Shown one piece after another: positions 10,450-37,158 of a DNA stretch of 37,158 nt. The stretch spans positions 1 through 37,158 of IMG/VR virus record IMGVR_UViG_3300022858_001224; one strand, written 5' to 3'. The position numbers and the translations under genes are program-made. The notes beneath the pieces were generated by a model. It did not search any database. It was not told the DNA's origin and saw only the letters and a list, made by a program, of their open reading frames with translations. Numbering within the stretch: position 1 is the first letter of the stretch; each line of letters opens with the position of its first letter. The stretch is from a virus.

Positions 10450-10540
10450 GGAGAAATGACAGAAATGGCAATTGTGTCCGTCTTGAAAATGGTAGCCACG
10501 GTAGATATTCCGTGTGAGGGTTCGAGTCCTTCTTTCTCCG
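10450..10540 (+). tRNA. tRNA-Ser (UGA)
   Basis: The acceptor stem GGAGAAA/TTTCTCC pairs perfectly with discriminator G at 10540. The anticodon loop CTTGAAA has anticodon TGA at 10484-10486. A long variable arm (CACGG...CCGTG) marks a type II tRNA, and the T arm is GAGGG-TTCGAGT-CCTTC. One end pair of the anticodon stem is a T-T mismatch. CCA is not encoded. It would read UCA and related serine codons. Confidence 0.9.
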
Positions 10541-10551
10541 TTTAGTTTATT

Positions 10552-10624
10552 GGGTTTCTAGCCCATTTGGGAGAGCGCCTGTTCTGCAAGCAGGAGGTAA
10601 AGAGTTCGATCCTCTTGAAATCCA
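10552..10624 (+). tRNA. tRNA-Ala (UGC), unusual C33
   Basis: The acceptor stem GGGTTTC/GAAATCC contains the G3-U70 wobble pair that is the alanine identity element, with discriminator A73. The block GGGAGAGCGCCTG...GCAGGAGGT matches typical bacterial tRNA-Ala. The anticodon loop reads TCTGCAA, anticodon TGC at 10585-10587. Position 33, almost always U, is C (10584). One D-stem pair is a C-A mismatch. CCA is not encoded. The anticodon rests on a 7-nt loop closed by CCTGT/GCAGG. Confidence 0.8.
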
Positions 10625-10628
10625 CTCT

Positions 10629-10702
10629 GCTCTTGTAGCATAGTCAGGCAATGCGCTATCCTTGTAAGGTAGAAACCGTGAGTTCAAATCTCACCGAGAG
10701 CT
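10629..10702 (+). tRNA. tRNA-Thr (UGU)
   Basis: Acceptor stem GCTCTTG/CGAGAGC (one G-U pair), D stem GCAT/ATGC, anticodon stem CTATC/GGTAG with loop CTTGTAA and anticodon TGT at 10663-10665, and T arm GTGAG-TTCAAAT-CTCAC. The discriminator is T and CCA is not encoded. It starts 5 nt after tRNA-Ala. Confidence 0.92.
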
Positions 10703-17411: not shown

Positions 17412-18425
17412 ATGGGCAGAAAAACATACAAGAAAGTAATTACATCGCCGGAACTATCAAAGAAAATCAATCCTGCTAGTTTGAAACTTGTTGAAAGATT
17501 TCTAAAAACAAAAAAAGCAAGATGTAGCGATTTGACAGTTAAAGGATATGCAAGTGATTTGAATATTTTTTTGACTTGGAATTTGTTGTATAATGACAAT
17601 ATTCCTTTTACGGATATTCGGAAAATTCAATTTGCGGAATTTTTTAACTTTACGCTTACCGATCTCCGCTGGAGTTCTTCAAGATTCAGTAGAGTAAAAT
17701 CTGCGTTATCTTCATTTTCTGATTTCATAGAAAAATATTTCGATACAGATTTTCCGTCATTTCGCAACGTCATTCTTCGAGCTGTAGATTCAGTTCCAAA
17801 ACAAGCAGTCAGAGAGAAGACTATTTTGTCAGATGAACAAGTTGAGTCTGTATTCAATTATATCGAAAATGAACTTGAAGATTTTCAAATGGCCTGCTGG
17901 TTTGCTTTAGCAATTGCAAGTGGTTCGAGATTCTCAGAACTGCTCAGATTTACTACAGAAAATATTGACCCTACGGTTTTGGCTTTTGAAGATATATTTA
18001 TAGAGAGTCTTCCGATTCAAACAAAAGGAAGGGGAAAAAATGGAAAGATGATAAGTAAGTATATCATCAAAGATATATTTTTGCCAAGATATGAAAAGTG
18101 GCTTCCAATTAGAAAAGAAATTCTAAATAAGAATGGCAAAGATCATGATTTTTTATTTATAAAACATAATGGCAATATTGCTCTGGCTTCTACGGCAAGA
18201 ACTTGGGTTCAAAAAATAGAAGATTTCTTGGAAGTTGATGTATATTCTCACTGCCTTCGCCACTTTTTTACTACTTATTTGGCAAAGGCTGGATTACCTG
18301 TTGATTTGATTCAAGAAATCGGAGGGTGGAAAAATACTGAAATGGTAATCCTGTATTCTGATGTTTCAGCTAAAGATAGGAAGTGGAAAGAACTTGAAAA
18401 TTTGAAAAATATTACTAAAAAATAA
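17412..18425 (+). CDS. Tyrosine recombinase (integrase/Xer family)
   Basis: A 337-residue recombinase. Residues about 20-110 form a core-binding domain (LKLVERFLKTKKARCSDLTVKGYASDLNIFLTW). The catalytic domain shows SGSRFSELLRF (R173), K205 in QTKGRGK, SHCLRHFF (H280, R283), GGWKN (W306 in the H/W position) and the nucleophile ILYSD (Y315). All catalytic positions are present. It would cut and join DNA at a specific site, for integration, excision or dimer resolution. Unusually for an integrase it lies between tail genes rather than at a lysogeny module; a lox-like inverted repeat lies at 33825-33862. Confidence 0.9.
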   Translation: MGRKTYKKVITSPELSKKINPASLKLVERFLKTKKARCSDLTVKGYASDLNIFLTWNLLYNDNIPFTDIRKIQFAEFFNFTLTDLRWSSSRFSRVKSALSSFSDFIEKYFDTDFPSFRNVILRAVDSVPKQAVREKTILSDEQVESVFNYIENELEDFQMACWFALAIASGSRFSELLRFTTENIDPTVLAFEDIFIESLPIQTKGRGKNGKMISKYIIKDIFLPRYEKWLPIRKEILNKNGKDHDFLFIKHNGNIALASTARTWVQKIEDFLEVDVYSHCLRHFFTTYLAKAGLPVDLIQEIGGWKNTEMVILYSDVSAKDRKWKELENLKNITKK

Positions 18426-18452
18426 GTTGTAGGCTATTTGAAAGGAGGCTAT

Positions 18453-20312
18453 ATGTCATCATTATCAAAATACACTATCAGAGTTAAAGCTGAGTTAGAT
18501 GATGTAAATCTTACGAAACAATTAAATGCTTTACAAAAAAAGATAAGTAAAGCAAAAAAAGCTGTCAGCGGTGAAAACGATCCTAAAAAATCGGCAGGAG
18601 AATTTTTAGGCATAGGTGAAAAAAGTTTTGAAGGTCTTGCAAGCAGAATAAAAGAATCGTCTGGCGAGTTAACGAAACTCAGAAAACATTTTCTTGGTCT
18701 TAGCGATACTATTCACAATGTAAAAGCAACAAAACTTATTGATGATGGAGAAATGACCTCTTATTCAGTTTCATTAGATAATATACAGGATGGCGTAAAA
18801 GAATCTCAAAAGTGGATGGTAAAACTTGGAGAAGGCGGGCAGTATTTTTTAAAAAAAATTTCTGGTACTGAACAGGAAGCCAAGAAGTTAAAAGAAACTA
18901 TAAAAAAAACTCAAGGTTTAAAAATAGTAGATGACGACAACCTTGATTCAGCAAAAATAAAAATTCAAGAATTTTCCGCAGGATTGCAAAAGGTTAGGGA
19001 AAGTTTTGAAGGTATTGGAGAAAATTTAAAGGTTTCGGGTGATTTTGATGTAAATACTGGAAAATTAAAAGGTTATCAAGTTACATTTGATAAAATAAAA
19101 GATGATGTAAAGCAAACTGAAACTTACATGGTTGGTCTTGATGGAAAAGTTGGTCAAGTTTTAAAAGGTGCAAAAACTACGGCAAAGGCTTTTAAAGAAG
19201 TAAAAAAAACTGTAAAAGACACCTCGTTATCTACGGAACAAGTAGATGCTAATCTTTTGAAATGGAATGATTCTCTTAGAGAAATGGAGAATAGAACTCC
19301 AAAAATATTTGAAAAAAAAGAGATTGTAGGAATAAGAACTGAACTTGACGGAATGATAGCTGCTTTTAATGATCCTAACGTAAAAAAGACACCAGAGATG
19401 GTTGCGGCTATCAATGCAAAAATGACGCATCTTAAATCTACTATACGTTCTACTTCTCTTGAAACTCAAAATCTAACTCACGATAGTGATGATTTTGGTA
19501 GTGTCATGGCGAAAAATATAAAAAAGGTTGTGCAGTGGGCAATTGCTACAACCGCAATTTATGGAACATTGAAGCAAATTAAAGAAGCGATTCAATTTAT
19601 TAAAGATTTAAATAAAGAAATGACAAATATCCAGGTTGTAACTGGAATGTCAAAAAATGAAATTAATGGTTTAACACAAGAATTTAATAAGTTGGCACTT
19701 GCGACAGGATCCACAACTATCGAGATCGCCGCGGGAAGTACAGAATGGTTTCGGGCTGGAAAAACAATAGCAGAAACTTCTGAATTGATGAGAGCGACTA
19801 TGATGCTTTCAAAACTTGGAAATATGGAATCTGCGGAATCAACCACTAAACTTACTGCTGCTTTAAATGGATTTCAACTTGGAGCTGAAGACGCAATTGA
19901 TGTAGTTGATGTACTAATTAATCTTGATAATCAATATTCTACAAGTGTTTCAGAATTAACAGAAGCATTGCAAATGTCTTCTAGTAGTGCTCAACAAGTA
20001 GGTGTTGATTTTAATGAATTAGCTTCTATGATTACCGTAATTTCGAGCACAACTAGACGCAGCGGATCTTCGATAGGAATGAGCATGAAAACTATGTTTG
20101 CCAGATTATCTGCAATAAAACTTGGCAAAATGTTTGAAGATGATGCCACAAATATTAATGATGTTGAAAAAGCATTAAGTTTAGTAAATATTAAATTAAG
20201 AGATAGTGAGACAAGTTTTCGCGATATGGGTAATGTGTTTGAAGATATTGCAGTAAAATGGGACACTATGAACGAATTGGAACAGTCGGCAGTGTCGACA
20301 GCGGTTGCTGGT
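18453..20312 (+). CDS. Tape measure protein, exon 1 (split by group I intron)
   Basis: The first 620 codons of a TP901-type tape measure protein, which sets tail length and forms part of the DNA channel. An N-terminal charged, helical region contains two related copies of a motif (SYSVSLDNIQDGVKESQKWMV and GYQVTFDKIKDDVKQTETYMV). The conserved core follows (NKEMTNIQVVTGMSKNEINGLTQEF..., GSTEWFRAGKTIAET..., SSTTRRSGSSIGMSMKTMFARL). The exon ends ...STAVAG. The open frame continues only to a stop at 20358-20360 inside the intron. The ATG at 18453 follows AAAGGAGG. Joined to exon 2, the protein has about 1,540 residues. Confidence 0.9.
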
Positions 20313-21647
20313 AAAATGTATGCCAGAACATGTAGTGATGCATGGGAGTTCGCTTATTAAACTCTAGAAGATGACCATATCGGAAAAACGCCTATAACAA
20401 GGTCAATTCCGAGGAAAGGCACAATAATTATAGACAAAAATATAGTGTAGATATTTTTGTATTGGAGAAACAATGAGAAAGAATAAAAGATGGACAGAGG
20501 AAAGAAAACAATTTTTAATAGATAACTATCCAAATAAACCAAAAGAATTTTTGATTGAAGAATTGGGAATTGCATGGAGTTCAATATATGCAAAGGCTAG
20601 TGAATTAAAGGTTGTTAGAAGGAATATTTTTACAAAAGAAGACATTGAATTTATTGTTGAAAATTATGAGCACATGAATTATTCTGAAATAGCAAATTTT
20701 TTAGGTAGAGACAAAAGTACTGTTGCCTGTAAAATTAATGGTGTGGGTTTGGTAAAAGTTGAAAAATGGACAAATGAAGAGGTTGATCTTTTAATAAAAA
20801 ATTATCCTAAATATACAAATAGATATTTATCAGATAAAATATTGCCAGGCAGAAAGAATTACAGCATAAGAACTATGGCTTATAAATATGGACTTCATAA
20901 ATCAGAAGAGATGGGAAAAAAAAGATATGATTCAGAAAAAATGATAGAGGACTTAATAAATCTTTCTGAAAAATTAGGAAGAACGCCATTTCTTAGCGAT
21001 TTAGTTGAAAATGGATTGGCTTCTGGAAAAACTTATCAAAGATATTTTGATGGATATCGTAATGCTTGTGAAATCGCTGGTCTAGAAATAAATTCAAATT
21101 TATGGGGAAGATCAATTTCCTGTAAGTCTATCAATGGCGATATATGTTTTTCAAAATCTGAAAAAATTATTACAGACTTTTTCATAGAGAACGACATTGG
21201 ATATAAAAAAGAAATAAAATATAGTAATTTTATAGATGAATCTATTTGCGGAAATAAAATTGTTGATTGGATTTTATCTGAAAATATTTTTGTAGAATAT
21301 TTTGGATTGCCAGAAAAAGAAAATTATAAAAAAAGAATGAATGAAAAAATTAGTATGTGTGAAAAAAATGATATTGTTTTAATAGAAGTGTATAGAAAAG
21401 ATTTGACAAAACTACACGAAGTTTTTAGTCAATTTTTATAGTTATTGTGAATCCGTAACGATCAATCGGGCTGTGTTGGTAACAACATAACCCACGTCAT
21501 CTTTCTTGTGAATAACAAGAAAAAGATATGATCTGAACTGCAACTATAATGAGAATATATGAAATTGCAGAGCATGGTAGAAATTCCATGACGCCATTCG
21601 TAAGAATGGTCAGTAACCTATTTTATGGGTGAAAGCAACAGATTTTG
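20313..21647 (+). other. Group I intron (IA-like) in tape measure gene
   Basis: Splicing joins ...GTTGCTGGT to GTACGACAA, restoring AVAG-VRQR. P1: exon CTGGT (20308-20312) pairs with GCCAG (20322-20326) with the U-G pair at the splice site; the intron ends with G (21647). P10: GTAT (20318-20321) pairs with exon GTAC (21648-21651). P3: GATGAC (20370-20375) with GTCATC (21496-21501). P7: GATCA (21460-21464) with TGATC (21529-21533), within an S-like AAGATATGATCT. P8: TTTCTTGT/ACAAGAAA. A stem CACAATAA/TTATTGTG (20420-20427, 21442-21449) has the endonuclease gene in its loop. P9-type hairpins follow, one capped by GTAA. Confidence 0.93.
20473..21441 (+). CDS. Intron-encoded homing endonuclease
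   Basis: A 322-residue protein lying in a peripheral loop of the intron, its stop directly at the start of the closing stem. Residues about 1-160 contain three similar helix-turn-helix units: WTEERKQFLIDNYP, FTKEDIEFIVENYE and WTNEEVDLLIKNYP, likely for recognising the long homing site. Next is a segment like the homing-endonuclease-associated repeat (LINLSEKLGRTPFLSDL...YRNACEIAGL). The C-terminus (SEKIITDFFIENDIGYKKE...IVDWILSENIFVEYFG) looks like a PD-(D/E)XK or Vsr-like nuclease, with D in VDW and E in VEYFG as candidate catalytic residues. It would cut intron-less tape-measure genes and spread the intron. Confidence 0.82.
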   Translation: MRKNKRWTEERKQFLIDNYPNKPKEFLIEELGIAWSSIYAKASELKVVRRNIFTKEDIEFIVENYEHMNYSEIANFLGRDKSTVACKINGVGLVKVEKWTNEEVDLLIKNYPKYTNRYLSDKILPGRKNYSIRTMAYKYGLHKSEEMGKKRYDSEKMIEDLINLSEKLGRTPFLSDLVENGLASGKTYQRYFDGYRNACEIAGLEINSNLWGRSISCKSINGDICFSKSEKIITDFFIENDIGYKKEIKYSNFIDESICGNKIVDWILSENIFVEYFGLPEKENYKKRMNEKISMCEKNDIVLIEVYRKDLTKLHEVFSQFL

Positions 21648-24410
21648 GTACGACAAAGAGAAGCATTTTTAGTATTAATGAGCAATTATAATCAAGTATT
21701 AGATGCACAGGCAATTGCAGCCGATTCTGCTGGTTTAGCAACAGAACGGTATGAAATTTATATGGAAGGTCTTGAAGCGACTGCTAATCGTTTTACTGCT
21801 ACATGGGAACAGTTATGGACAAAAACCATTAATTCAGAAGCTGTTGAAATTGTTATCAATATGGGAATTGCGATAATGCGATGGGGTATTGAGATGGGTG
21901 GATTATTGCCTATAATAAAGGTGTTGTCCGGTGTTTTAATTGCTCTCAATATTGAAAAAATTACTGGCGTTATAGTTGGTATTATAGGTTCGATTAAAAA
22001 TCTTGGTGTTGCTATAGCTAAGTTTGCAGTACTTGCCGCATCTAATATGGCTATAGCTACCGCCGGTGTTACACTTCTTATTGCTGCGATTATCGGTATT
22101 GGTTATGCTATAGATGAATCATCAAAAAAAATGAGTAGTTTGGCGGAATCTTTTGATGAAATAAATTCAGAGGCATTATCTAGACAAGATGAGTTAAAAT
22201 CTCTTGGTGAAGAATATGAGACTTTATCGGAAAAACAAAATAAAAATAAAGATGATTTAATCAGGCTGCTCGATATTCAAACAATTATGAATACAAAATA
22301 TGGCGCTGCTGCGGATGAAATAACATTATATTCTGATGCGGTAGACAATAATAGCGATGCTATTAAAGAGAATATTGAGTGGATAAAAAAACAAGCAGAA
22401 GTTGACGCTCAATCATATATTGATACGAACAGGCTGAAATATGATAAAGCAAAAGAATTTTTAGATAAAGAAGGTGTTGTTCCGAAAATGTTTTTTGAAA
22501 GTGAAGACGATGCTGGTTATAGGTTATATGAGGACATTCCAGAAAATGCAGGACAAAGAGATATTCTTGAATATTACGCCAAAGTCGCTGAAGCTGGAGA
22601 AAAAGGTTATAAAAAATATGAAAAATGGTATAATGAATTAATAAAAGAGGTTTCTACCGCCGAAGATCTTGTGATTGGATACGACCATTTTGTAAATGTT
22701 TTACAGGGCGTTAGTGATGGGGTTGAATCGGTTAGTGATTCTAGCGATGATACAATTCCTTCTATTTATGATACCGCAGAATCATTTGAAGAACTTGCAA
22801 AAGCCGCCGATGATGCTACAGATTCTATGCGTTCTGCAATGGACGTTTCGGTCTCTTTACTGAAGGCTTATAAAGAAAAAGATTCTTTGACATCTTCACA
22901 AATAGATCAATTGAAAAACGCATTTCCAGATTCTTATATGCAAGCACTTACAATAGAGGGTAATTTAATAAAATTAAATATAGAAACTCTCAAAGAGATG
23001 GTTATTGCTCGTGCTAGAGAATCTCTTGTAGCTTCAAAGACAGCATTGTCTAATATTGAAGCTAAAAGAAAAGAGGCATTATCATCTATAAGTACAGCAA
23101 GAGCCATTATTGAAAGTAATAGTGCGGTAGAAATTTCTATGTCTGGGCTAGGTTTGTTCTACAATAAAATAGCTGTTGAAGCTGTAAATAGCGCAAATAA
23201 TCAAATCGCTGCGCAACAGGCACTTCTAGAAGGTACTGAAGCTCAATATAAATCTCTTCAGGACGATATTAAGCTAAATTCTATTTATCTCAGCCAACTA
23301 GAAGACGGTAGTTATTGGACAAATGAGTTAGCCGATGCAACCAGTGGGGATTCCGATAGTTTGGCTGAATCTGAAAAAGCGTATAGCGATCTTTTAGCTT
23401 TGACAATAAAAATGTTGAAACAAAAAAAGAATGCAGAAAAAGACGCTTTGCAAGATGAATTAGCTGGTTATAAAAAAATTATTGATGCTCGTAAAAGAAT
23501 CATCGATCTTCGTGAAGAAGAACGTGATTTTCAAAACGATCTTGATGATAAAAACGAGAAACTAGCAGATATTGATGCTGAATTATTACAACTTCAGTTT
23601 GATAACAGTGAAGAAGCAGTAGCAAGACGATTGGTTCTTGAAGATGAAAAAGCCAAGCAAATTGAGGATATTGACGAATTACAGAATGATCGTAGCGTTG
23701 AAATCCAGAAAGATGCTTTGGATGAAGAATATGATGATTATGAAGAACTTATCGACAAAAAAATTGCATTAATAGATAGCTATCTTAGCCGTGAAGGTGA
23801 GATTGCTCAAGAAGCTATTGCCATGATGAAGAATAGAACCGATGGGTTCTACCAATCATTATTGAGCTGGAATAGAGCTTATGGCGATGGAATTGATAGT
23901 ACGATCTCGAAATTATGGGCACAAGTAAGTGCTGCTCATGCGGCTTCAAGTATCAGTATGAATGTTCAACAAGTTTCCACAGAACCAGAAAAGAAACCAT
24001 ATATTGCTCCTGCAAAGACGCAACAAGATTACTATCAGGACTTTCAATCTGGTGGTTTAGTATGGGTTGAAAAAGGGACTGGTTCTAGAATTGTTCAAAG
24101 TCAGTATGATATGCTCCCCCGTTATCACGAGGGTGGCGTTGTTGGTATGCGGGGTTCTAAGGTTGGCGAAGTATTTGCAAACCTAATGAAAGGCGAAGTT
24201 GTTGTCAATCAACAACAAATGTCTGACTTTTTAGGATCTACATTACCAGATATTGCGAATAGTGGAATAACTATCAGTATGCCGATTACAGTTCAAGGAA
24301 ATCTTGATAAATCAGTTCTTCCAGAATTGAAATCTATGATTTTTGACACTATAAAGAAAGCAACTGATAATCGTGGAATAAGGAGAGGTGTAAAAAGCTT
24401 CTCAGTTTAA
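21648..24410 (+). CDS. Tape measure protein, exon 2
   Basis: The remaining 920 codons of the tape measure gene, beginning VRQREAFLVLMSNYNQVLDAQ, the sequence expected right after the core motif in exon 1. Membrane-like segments lie early (GLLPIIKVLSGVLIALN; AAIIGIGYAID), followed by long charged coiled coils (KQKKNAEKDALQDELAGYKKIIDARKRIIDLREEERDFQNDLDDKNEKL). The C-terminus is typical of tape measures (GGLVWVEKGTGSRIV...YHEGGVVGMRG...NLMKGEVVVNQQQM). An upstream TTG in frame is the last intron codon and is not used. A terminator follows. Confidence 0.9.
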   Translation, partial: VRQREAFLVLMSNYNQVLDAQAIAADSAGLATERYEIYMEGLEATANRFTATWEQLWTKTINSEAVEIVINMGIAIMRWGIEMGGLLPIIKVLSGVLIALNIEKITGVIVGIIGSIKNLGVAIAKFAVLAASNMAIATAGVTLLIAAIIGIGYAIDESSKKMSSLAESFDEINSEALSRQDELKSLGEEYETLSEKQNKNKDDLIRLLDIQTIMNTKYGAAADEITLYSDAVDNNSDAIKENIEWIKKQAEVDAQSYIDTNRLKYDKAKEFLDKEGVVPKMFFESEDDAGYRLYEDIPENAGQRDILEYYAKVAEAGEKGYKKYEKWYNELIKEVSTAEDLVIGYDHFVNVLQGVSDGVESVSDSSDDTIPSIYDTAESFEELAKAADDATDSMRSAMDVSVSLLKAYKEKDSLTSSQIDQLKNAFPDSYMQALTIEGNLIKLNIETLKEMVIARARESLVASKTALSNIEAKRKEALSSISTARAIIESNSAVEISMSGLGLFYNKIAVEAVNSANNQIAAQQALLEGTEAQYKSLQDDIKLNSIYLSQLEDGSYWTNELADATSGDSDSLAESEKAYSDLLALTIKMLKQKKNAEKDALQDELAGYKKIIDARKRIIDLREEERDFQNDLDDKNEKLADIDAELLQLQFDNSEEAVARRLVLEDEKAKQIEDIDELQNDRSVEIQKDALDEEYDDYEELIDKKIALIDSYLSREGEIAQEAIAMMKNRTDGFYQSLLSWNRAYGDGIDSTISKLWAQVSAAHAASSISMNVQQVSTEPEKKPYIAPAKTQQDYYQDFQSGGLVWVEKGTGSRIVQSQYDMLPRYHEGGVVGMRGSKVGEVFANLMKGEVVVNQQQMSDFLGSTLPDIANSGITISMPITVQGNLDKSVLPELKSMIFDTIKKATDNRGIRRGVKSFSV

Positions 24411-33787: not shown

Positions 33788-33811
33788 TGGTTTTGAATTT
33801 TTGATGTTAAA

Positions 33812-33875
33812 ATGGTGTTTTTTGTATAGATAGATTAACTTACGTAGGTTAATCTATCTATATAGAATACACCAT
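33812..33875 (+). repeat. Long inverted repeat with lox-like 15-8-15 core
   Basis: TATAGATAGATTAAC (33825-33839) and GTTAATCTATCTATA (33848-33862) are perfect inverted arms around the 8-nt spacer TTACGTAG. The pairing continues outward with five further pairs (two G-U), one mismatch and then ATGGTGT/ACACCAT, about 27 pairs in all. It lies between the lysis genes and the next structural gene. It may be a recombination site, an RNase III site or a transcript-stability hairpin. Confidence 0.9.
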
Positions 33876-33896
33876 AATAAAGTAAAGGAGGTTTTT

Positions 33897-34795: not shown

Positions 34796-36157
34796 ATGCG
34801 TAGAACAAAAAGAATGACGCTAATTTTTAGAAATAAATCTAAAGGTACACCTACACCTATCGGAGAGAATTCAATCTATGGAGTGAGCTGGGACAAGTCC
34901 AGTTCTCCAACATTGACACGAACCGACGATTCTGTCGGATTTACAGCGGAAGCAGGAGTTGGAGCCGGAACAGTTGTGAATGATTTTGACACGGCTGAAA
35001 TTTATAAAGACATTACAACCTCAGTGGATGCACTCGGAAACACATTCGTAAAGATTCCAAAATTTTACATCAAGAAAACAAATGGAGTTGGAAGCTACAC
35101 TATTCAAATCAGCCGGTATCAACACAGTGGCTATTATCTTCCCTATTGTTTCTGGGACTTTGATAATAGTGTTGAGCTTGATTATTTTTATGTCGGAGCA
35201 TATACGACCAGCCTTGACGGATCGAGTCGGTTAGAAAGTAAGAGTGGAAACTATCCGCTTGTCAATACAAATATTGTAAACATGCGAACATATGCTGAGA
35301 ACAATGGCGCAGGTTATCATCAATTTGATATACATGCTCATGATCTATTGTCCTGTTTATTCATGGTAGAATTTGCGACTCTGAATAGCCAGTCCATTAT
35401 GTTTGGATTTGCTAATGGAAGATATTCAGCCAGCGATTTAGCGACAGCTACTGAAAATGGTGTCAATAGAATTATTGTAGCTAACGCAATAGCGGATTAT
35501 TATAGAGTTGGACAACCGATAGGAATTGGAACATCGCGGGGAGGCAATCAAATATTTTATGGCCGAGATATTACTGTGATAGACGTTTATGATGCCAGTA
35601 ATAAAGCAATCTCATTTGATGGGGCTGCTGTTAATATAGCAACTGGGAACTATTTATATAATGTTGGTTGGAAATCAGGGTTTAGTTCTGGGATTTCAGC
35701 TACGTCAGGCAGTTTAGTAAGTAATTCTGATGGTAAGTATCCTTTTGTTTATCGAGGAGTTGAAAATTTATGGGGAAATGTCTGGCAGTTTATAGATGGT
35801 ATTAACATCAATGATCACCAATCATGGGTGGCACTTAACCATGTCGATTATGCCAGCAATGTTTTTGCATCACCGTACCTACAGTTAGATTATGCTAACC
35901 ATAACGCGAGTGGATATATAACTGAAATGGGGTTTGACAGCAATTATCCATTTGCACAGTATCCAATTAGTGTTGGTGGAGGAGCAGCAACTTATTATAG
36001 CGATTATTATTATCAAGCCACTGGACAAAGAATTGCGTTTGCTGGTGGTAATTGGTATTTCGGTGCGATTGCTGGGTTGTCGTATTGGGTTTTGAGCAGC
36101 TCTTCTTCTAGCGCGTACGTCAGTCTTGGCGGGCGGCTTCTTAAATCCTCTCTTTAG
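34796..36157 (+). CDS. DGR variable protein, C-type-lectin/FGE-like
   Basis: A 453-residue protein, the target of the retroelement. The first 110 residues differ from the rest and may attach it to the virion (GENSIYGVSWDKSSSPTLTRTDDSVGF). The central and C-terminal part has the features of formylglycine-generating-enzyme-like C-type lectin folds, including KIPKFYIKK, FDIHAHDLLSCLFMVEFAT, YRGVENLWGNVWQFIDGI and GGNW. The variable residues (about 413-448) are at the very C-terminus, as in other DGR targets, where they form the ligand-binding face. AGGTG precedes the ATG at 34796. Likely a receptor-binding protein. Confidence 0.92.
   Translation: MRRTKRMTLIFRNKSKGTPTPIGENSIYGVSWDKSSSPTLTRTDDSVGFTAEAGVGAGTVVNDFDTAEIYKDITTSVDALGNTFVKIPKFYIKKTNGVGSYTIQISRYQHSGYYLPYCFWDFDNSVELDYFYVGAYTTSLDGSSRLESKSGNYPLVNTNIVNMRTYAENNGAGYHQFDIHAHDLLSCLFMVEFATLNSQSIMFGFANGRYSASDLATATENGVNRIIVANAIADYYRVGQPIGIGTSRGGNQIFYGRDITVIDVYDASNKAISFDGAAVNIATGNYLYNVGWKSGFSSGISATSGSLVSNSDGKYPFVYRGVENLWGNVWQFIDGININDHQSWVALNHVDYASNVFASPYLQLDYANHNASGYITEMGFDSNYPFAQYPISVGGGAATYYSDYYYQATGQRIAFAGGNWYFGAIAGLSYWVLSSSSSSAYVSLGGRLLKSSL
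36033..36137 (+). repeat. DGR variable repeat (VR)
   Basis: A 105-nt block at the 3' end of the target gene aligns without gaps with TR at 36216-36320. By hand count 23 positions differ, and each is A in TR. Upstream of 36033 and shortly downstream of 36137 similarity stops (a few further bases, CTCTT/TTCTT, match with one T/C mismatch). Confidence 0.95.
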
Positions 36158-36163
36158 GGGGTT

Positions 36164-36177
36164 TGGGGGTCTCCCCA
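36164..36177 (+). other. GC hairpin downstream of VR
   Basis: TGGGG, loop GTCT, CCCCA: a 5-bp stem with a 4-nt loop, 7 nt after the target gene stop. GC-rich hairpins just after VR assist retrohoming in the Bordetella phage DGR, so this is a candidate equivalent; the neighbouring GGGGGG run allows alternative pairing. Confidence 0.5.
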
Positions 36178-36215
36178 CAAGGTTTTGAATAAAATACGGG
36201 GTACAAGATGTGCTC

Positions 36216-36320
36216 TTGCGATTGCTGGTGGTAATTGGAATAACAGTGCGAATGATGGGTTGTCAAATTGGAATTTGAACAACACTTCTTCAAACGCGAA
36301 CATCAATATTGGCAGGCAGA
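36216..36320 (+). repeat. DGR template repeat (TR)
   Basis: A non-coding copy of VR located between the target gene and the reverse transcriptase. It contains 33 adenines, mostly in AAT/AAC codons in the VR frame (NWNNSANDGLSNWNLNN), which allow the widest amino-acid range when adenines are mutated. It has its own open frame, but that is a by-product of the copied coding sequence. Confidence 0.95.
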
Positions 36321-36330
36321 CTCTTATTAG

Positions 36331-36352
36331 AAAATGTAAAAAAATACATTTT
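36331..36352 (+). other. Hairpin in TR-RT spacer
   Basis: AAAATGTA, loop of six A, TACATTTT: a perfect 8-bp AT stem 10 nt after TR. The spacer RNA between TR and RT is needed for cDNA priming in the Bordetella system, so this may be part of that RNA structure. Confidence 0.5.
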
Positions 36353-36445
36353 GTATTCCACACCTCTTGGTGAAAATTAAGCCGTAAAGAGCATAGTTTA
36401 GTAGGTTTATTCTCGAAATACTATGAGGCTAATAAGAAGGAAATT

Positions 36446-37158
36446 ATGAAAAGAATTGGATATATCTATGAAAAAATATATTCTTACGAGAATATACAAA
36501 ACGCAATATTAAAGGCTTCACTAGGAAAAAGAAATAGGAAGTATGTAAAAAACAAAATAGACAATATGGATAATACAATCCTTGAAATTCAACATATGTT
36601 AAAAAATAAACTTTACAAGCCATCGCCTTATAACATAAAAATAATTCTTGATGGTGCAAACAAAAAGAAAAGAATGATTTATAAACCAAAATTTTATCCC
36701 GACCAAATTATACACTGGGCATTGATATTGCAAATTCAAGATATACTTTTAAAAGGAATGTACAAATATACTTGCGGAAGTGTTCCGGGAAGAGGAACAA
36801 GCTATGGTCAAAAAATTGTTCGCAAATGGCTTGATAAAGATTATAAAAATACAAAATATTGTTTCAAGGCAGATATTACCAAGTTTTATCCATCCATAAA
36901 TATCAACATATTAAAAAATATGTTTTATAAAAAAATTAAAGATAAAAATTGTATATGGCTAATAAACAAAATATTAGATAGTGCCGATGATGGTTTACCG
37001 ATTGGCAATTATACAAGCCAATGGTTTTCTAATTTCTTTTTGCAAGATTTAGATCATTATATAAAGGAAAAACTTGATGTAAAATATTATATTAGGTATG
37101 TAGATGATATTGTTTTATTAGGTAGCAATAAGAAGAAATTACATTTAGCAAAAATAAA
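36446..37158 (+). CDS. DGR reverse transcriptase (3' end missing)
   Basis: The first 237 residues are in the window. Visible reverse transcriptase motifs are CGSVPGRGT (about 110-117), FKADITKFYPSIN (catalytic D143), GLPIGNYTSQWFSNFFLQDLD with the DGR-type IGNxxSQ (186-192) and YYIRYVDDIVLL (catalytic YVDD, 218-221). The enzyme would copy TR RNA and misincorporate opposite adenines. ATG at 36446 follows AGAAGG. The gene continues past the window edge, so an avd or other accessory gene could lie beyond. Confidence 0.95.
   Translation, partial: MKRIGYIYEKIYSYENIQNAILKASLGKRNRKYVKNKIDNMDNTILEIQHMLKNKLYKPSPYNIKIILDGANKKKRMIYKPKFYPDQIIHWALILQIQDILLKGMYKYTCGSVPGRGTSYGQKIVRKWLDKDYKNTKYCFKADITKFYPSININILKNMFYKKIKDKNCIWLINKILDSADDGLPIGNYTSQWFSNFFLQDLDHYIKEKLDVKYYIRYVDDIVLLGSNKKKLHLAKI

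Follow-up and report, generated by a model that had tools for sequence, protein, structure and literature searches.

Most diversity-generating retroelements (DGRs), though not all of them, include the accessory protein Avd. Bordetella phage BPP-1 carries a DGR in the order mtd, avd, template repeat (TR) and brt. In BPP-1, the folded spacer RNA brings in the reverse transcriptase (RT) along with Avd and serves as primer for cDNA synthesis close to the 3' junction of the TR (PMC12875486). Phage DGRs of clades 1, 4 and 6 diversify host-attachment proteins and are active in metagenomes (Roux et al. 2021, PMC8144416). In this study, we describe an element from a virus record which we read as a DGR of a tailed phage, working by the mechanism proposed below, with a probability of about 0.96. 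It may already be listed in the catalogue of Roux et al. (PMC8144416).

The window, i.e. the whole stretch of DNA that was analysed, corresponds to one entire virus record of IMG/VR, 37,158 bp long. It encodes a terminase, a portal protein, a tape measure protein, Dit, a minor tail protein and a GH25 endolysin, and is therefore assigned to a tailed phage. A DNA-level search for the DGR locus in a phage collection gave no match. The tape measure gene (18438-24410) looks interrupted by an insert; an ORF in this insert (20473-21441) carries a homing-endonuclease-associated HNH repeat (PF18780), and the two halves of the tape measure gene match neighbouring parts of phrog_4211. Immediately upstream of this gene, at an unusual site, lies a tyrosine-recombinase integrase (17412-18425; PF00589, E 2.6e-20). 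The window further contains three tRNA genes in a row (10450-10702; Ser(tga), Ala(tgc) and Thr(tgt)) and an intergenic inverted repeat (33807-33880) with 37-nt arms that are 84% complementary and have zero gap between them. The features of the DGR locus are collected in Table 1.

Table 1. Positions of the DGR features in the window, in order along the sequence.
Feature	Position	Strand	Details
DGR target gene, 453 aa tail protein	34796..36157	+	ORF; PHROG 5302 tail protein, E 1.3e-56; VR C-terminal
Variable repeat (VR)	36033..36137	+	23/33 TR adenines altered, 0/72 others; hypermutated core ~36033-36130
IMH-like VR 3' end	36131..36143	+	VR-side GGGCGGCTTCTTAAA conserved in close relatives; TR reads AGGCAGACTCTTATTA
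Post-VR hairpin TGGGG-GTCT-CCCCA	36164..36177	+	Inverted-repeat scan, DNA fold; just 3' of target stop codon
Template repeat (TR)	36216..36320	+	VR, TR and RT all on + strand
TR-spacer helix, 5' arm TCTTATTAG	36322..36330	+	9 bp with 36429-36437, shuffle p 0.0004
RT-18 structured RNA (Rfam RF03021), TR-RT spacer	36361..36439	+	74.4 bits vs gathering score 41.3, E 1.1e-11
TR-spacer helix, 3' arm CTAATAAGA	36429..36437	+	Adjoins the RT gene's likely ribosome-binding site; unpaired in Rfam model
DGR-type reverse transcriptase, partial	36446..37158	+	Record ends after 237 aa; RVT_1 E 1.6e-9; phrog_1423 E 1.9e-78

The last part of the window calls for some care concerning its assembly. The 1,979 bases from 35180 to 37158 are identical to the related record L002, identity just upstream is about 84%, and the switch at 35180 is sharp. 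Moreover, the window (37158), L002 (4483) and a further relative, L003 (5988), end within 29 bases of one another inside the RT gene, probably due to strains that share identical sequence in the assembly. Both the sharp switch and the clustered ends would be accounted for if the cassette end of one contig, either the window or L002, were a co-assembly artefact and the VR did not belong to the same phage as the remainder of the window. We consider this unlikely, as the target frame runs unbroken across 35180 and recent recombination between co-resident phages, here with a junction within the target gene, gives a like pattern. Even if true, such an artefact would not change the reading of the locus as a DGR.

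VR and TR were compared base by base. They align at an offset of 183 without gaps over 105 positions and are separated by 78 nt. The VR differs at 23 of the 33 TR adenines (A to T 10, A to G 10, A to C 3) and at none of the 72 other positions, exactly the count given in the original prediction, which had also called such a pattern very unlikely by chance; the hypergeometric probability that all 23 mismatches fall on 33 of 105 positions is 1.05e-15. The first non-adenine mismatch is found immediately outside the interval, at 36138 (T where the TR has C), and the five following bases (36139-36143) match again. When the whole window was searched on both strands for a second VR belonging to this TR, the next-best place agreed in only 38 of the 72 non-A letters. 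At the codon level 20 codons differ, which results in 18 amino-acid replacements and two silent changes at third-position adenines (TCA to TCG, TCA to TCT). These two silent changes speak for a mutational signature rather than one due to selection alone. AAT and AAC codons are mainly affected, as had been predicted (10 of 11 replaced, giving Y, F, I, Y, V, S, S, S, Y and S), but the glycines listed with these replacements stem from AGT and AGG. No stop codon is reachable in the VR by a change of an adenine.

Three of the 23 differences (36131, 36135 and 36137) fall within the VR-side GGGCGGCTTCTTAAA stretch. This stretch, including near variants, is conserved in L004, L020, L006 and L009, with a TR side that is identical or close to that of the window; it encodes GGRLLK, which is conserved as well, and R447 is invariant among 27 targets. 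Because both the VR-side 3' end and the encoded peptide are conserved in relatives, the three differences are probably fixed IMH/IMH* differences, as judged from sequence comparison, which leaves a hypermutated core of 20 of 30 adenines. Thus, all 23 sites described before as replaced do lie at TR adenines, but about three of them probably represent fixed differences of the 3' end. The hairpin downstream is weak in the window (DNA fold z only -1.2), and at the same place after the VR many relatives carry GC-rich stems of 7-8 bp with loops of 4-5 nt.

Concerning the target protein, neither a Pfam scan nor a search for sequence relatives in the PDB gave a result, and the match described here comes from fold comparison only. 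The AlphaFold2 model, based on 27 aligned sequences (pLDDT 83.5, pTM 0.84), gave a single kind of significant match among PDB folds, the Thermus aquaticus variable protein TaqVP (5vf4, E 3.6e-10), over nearly the full length. The VR accordingly occupies the C-terminus of a target with a predicted C-type lectin fold. The replaced residues had been placed at lectin-face positions; the TaqVP match supports a lectin-like fold as a prediction, and the face itself would be deduced from that predicted fold. More than one target gene is seen in some relatives. In L020 (238-303 and 3583-3689) the end of a second target gene, located upstream on the contig, also pairs with the TR, so that two targets seem to be supplied by a single TR. 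L010 and L012 are one contig of 61,309 bp with two related target genes tens of kb apart.

The RT of the window carries the motifs IGNYTSQ and YVDD, the former corresponding to the [I/V/L]GxxxSQ pattern, beside the TR. Among solved structures, the full-length RT of L004 matched best the DGR RT of BPP-1 (8ub7, 110.7 bits; next match 38.7 bits), and NCBIfam returned weak matches to other RT classes, below the cut-off. In many relatives a small gene overlaps the 3' end of the RT gene by 10-80 nt (e.g. L022, 5025-5528), and L004, L006 and L007 instead have a gene of 271-276 aa after the RT (CBM5/12 in L004). The small overlapping ORFs were considered as a substitute for Avd or another DGR accessory and were rejected, since the one that was tested matches the phage tail assembly chaperone family PF16778.

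Sister genomes were compared in two pairs of contigs from different metagenome samples. L006 and L009 show 20 differences in 11,302 aligned bp, and 20 of 20 are located at TR-adenine sites in the VR. Over 3,626 aligned bp of L004 and L003 every difference lies inside the VR, namely 19 substitutions, of which 18 are at TR-A sites and one at C, and one in-frame deletion of 3 nt. The deletion sits at an AATAAT repeat of the TR, as expected from a slip on the template; a slippage model has been mentioned for AAC repeats (PMC12875486). The pairs L056/L054 and L016/L010 have 13 VR differences each at A sites plus five and four, respectively, at non-A sites, which indicates that adenine specificity in this clade, though strong, has exceptions. 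In 31 VR/TR pairs, including the window, 506 of 819 adenines are changed (262 to G, 154 to T, 90 to C) as compared to 13 of 2,423 other bases, the latter figure being biased downwards because pair detection demanded adenine-tolerant matches. The 20 of 20 differences at template-adenine sites in 11 kb provide clean natural evidence for the confinement of change by a DGR.

The past activity postulated in the original prediction is upheld by the adenine-only differences, the adjacent DGR-type RT, the TaqVP-like predicted fold of the target and the two sister pairs with VR-confined differences. New changes at A sites, the expected mark of a working element, are present between these relatives and absent between the window and L002, its most similar record, whose VR and TR are identical to those of the window; recent activity is thus demonstrated in relatives, not in the exact window phage. 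This identity over 1,979 bases, an RT reading frame that runs off the record and the imperfect stem of the post-VR hairpin would also suit a decayed DGR, inactive in the window phage, with a VR that records one old event. We regard such decay as improbable, given that the TR, the RT-18 RNA, the TR-spacer helix, the RT motifs and the target frame are all intact, and that nothing outside the VR differs between L003 and L004, which are 83-84% relatives with this layout. An ordinary tandem duplication whose copies came to differ through selection on the lectin surface, without dedicated mutagenesis, would fit repeats so close together and differences clustered at surface-type codons, but it is already refuted by the base specificity, which extends to silent third-position adenines, and is further opposed by the adjoining DGR-type RT and by sister genomes of relatives that differ almost only at TR-A sites.

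The spacer between TR and RT contains a structured RNA that matches the Rfam family RT-18 over the full model (1-84). The window and 16 of 20 relatives have RT-18 in the interval that separates TR from RT, and compensatory changes are seen at 11 of the 12 consensus pairs among 16 sequences. A scan of 291 related Clostridia genomes, which started from RT-18 and not from DGRs, revealed four matches, one of them in the centre genome that was already known; each of the four has a DGR-type RT and a VR/TR pair with adenine-specific differences beside it. The slot between TR and RT is occupied elsewhere by the Phage_DGR RNA in BPP-1, by RT-4 in Faecalibacterium phage FP_Epona and by RT-17 in a Dysgonomonas genome. 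On the grounds of its position in relatives, the four of four Clostridia matches and the presence of Phage_DGR RNA, RT-4 and RT-17 in the equivalent slot, RT-18 is most plausibly the spacer portion of the template RNA of the DGR. This ties to DGRs an RNA family left unassigned by Rfam. No paper naming RT-18 or RF03021 was found in a literature search, and the link between RT-18 and DGRs may have been recognized earlier.

Folding of the spacer revealed an additional helix, absent from the Rfam model, that joins the 3' end of the TR to the 3' end of RT-18. Its arms covary across 20 loci, with own pairs beating re-paired arms in 5,000 of 5,000 permutations under two scores. The loci from the genome scan have similar TR-spacer helices, which are significant individually in some of them only. 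By analogy, the helix would place the end of the TR at a site corresponding to the priming region of BPP-1.

No member of the bAvd family (PF22296) turned up in the window, the related phage records, four annotated relatives or the four RT-18-bearing bacterial genomes; the model used detects the BPP-1 control (E 2.2e-37), a divergent Avd could escape it, and absence from the window phage is unproven because fragments are common among the records and the window breaks off inside the RT. PF05635 (23S_rRNA_IVP) gave zero matches anywhere, controls included, and is hence uninformative. Two bacterial genomes reached via the RT search carry bAvd-family genes. We infer that Avd is not needed in the RT-18 lineage. 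Tentatively, and at somewhat under even odds, we propose that RT-18, not designated a DGR RNA in Rfam, serves as the 3' domain that presents the template in a DGR lineage devoid of Avd. In such a lineage the TR-spacer helix would position the template, and RNA structure would do part of the work of RT and Avd in BPP-1. A TR-spacer helix in a lineage without detectable Avd could be a simpler system for the study of targeted mutagenesis.

For the DGR as a whole, we envisage that the TR is transcribed together with the downstream RT-18 spacer RNA and that the RT would make a cDNA copy of the TR in which errors arise opposite adenines. In this lineage, the 3' end of the TR appears to be kept in place by the spacer RNA via the helix 36322-36330/36429-36437, where reverse transcription may start. 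The mutated cDNA would then take the place of the VR that closes the tail-protein gene, altering up to about 18 residues on a surface predicted to be C-type-lectin-like. Assuming a role of this protein in receptor binding, replacement would probably change receptor specificity, i.e. which bacteria the phage binds.

The comparison with known systems places the locus among phage-encoded DGRs, as are those of clades 1, 4 and 6 (PMC8144416). With the BPP-1 DGR it shares the location of the VR in the 3'-terminal part of a gene for a tail protein, an intergenic TR, adenine-specific VR/TR differences, a DGR RT with IGxxxSQ and YxDD, a structured TR-RT spacer RNA and, although weak in the window, a short hairpin after the VR (PMC3240598). 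The loop of that hairpin, GTCT, does not fit the consensus GRNA of phage DGR hairpins (PMC3240598). Unlike the window, in which no Avd was found, BPP-1 has Avd, and its spacer RNA is Phage_DGR (RF03022) instead of RT-18. A DGR-like locus of Lactobacillus phage LBR48 encodes an RT about 52% identical to that of L004 and has an RT-18 RNA directly 5' of the RT as well as a related target protein. In contrast to the window, LBR48 shows no VR/TR pair in its first 4,850 bases by the criterion used, its annotated record beginning inside the target gene. The target protein finally shares its overall fold, nearly full length, with TaqVP, which stems from a bacterial DGR and not from a phage tail gene, although the two are only about 14% identical in sequence.
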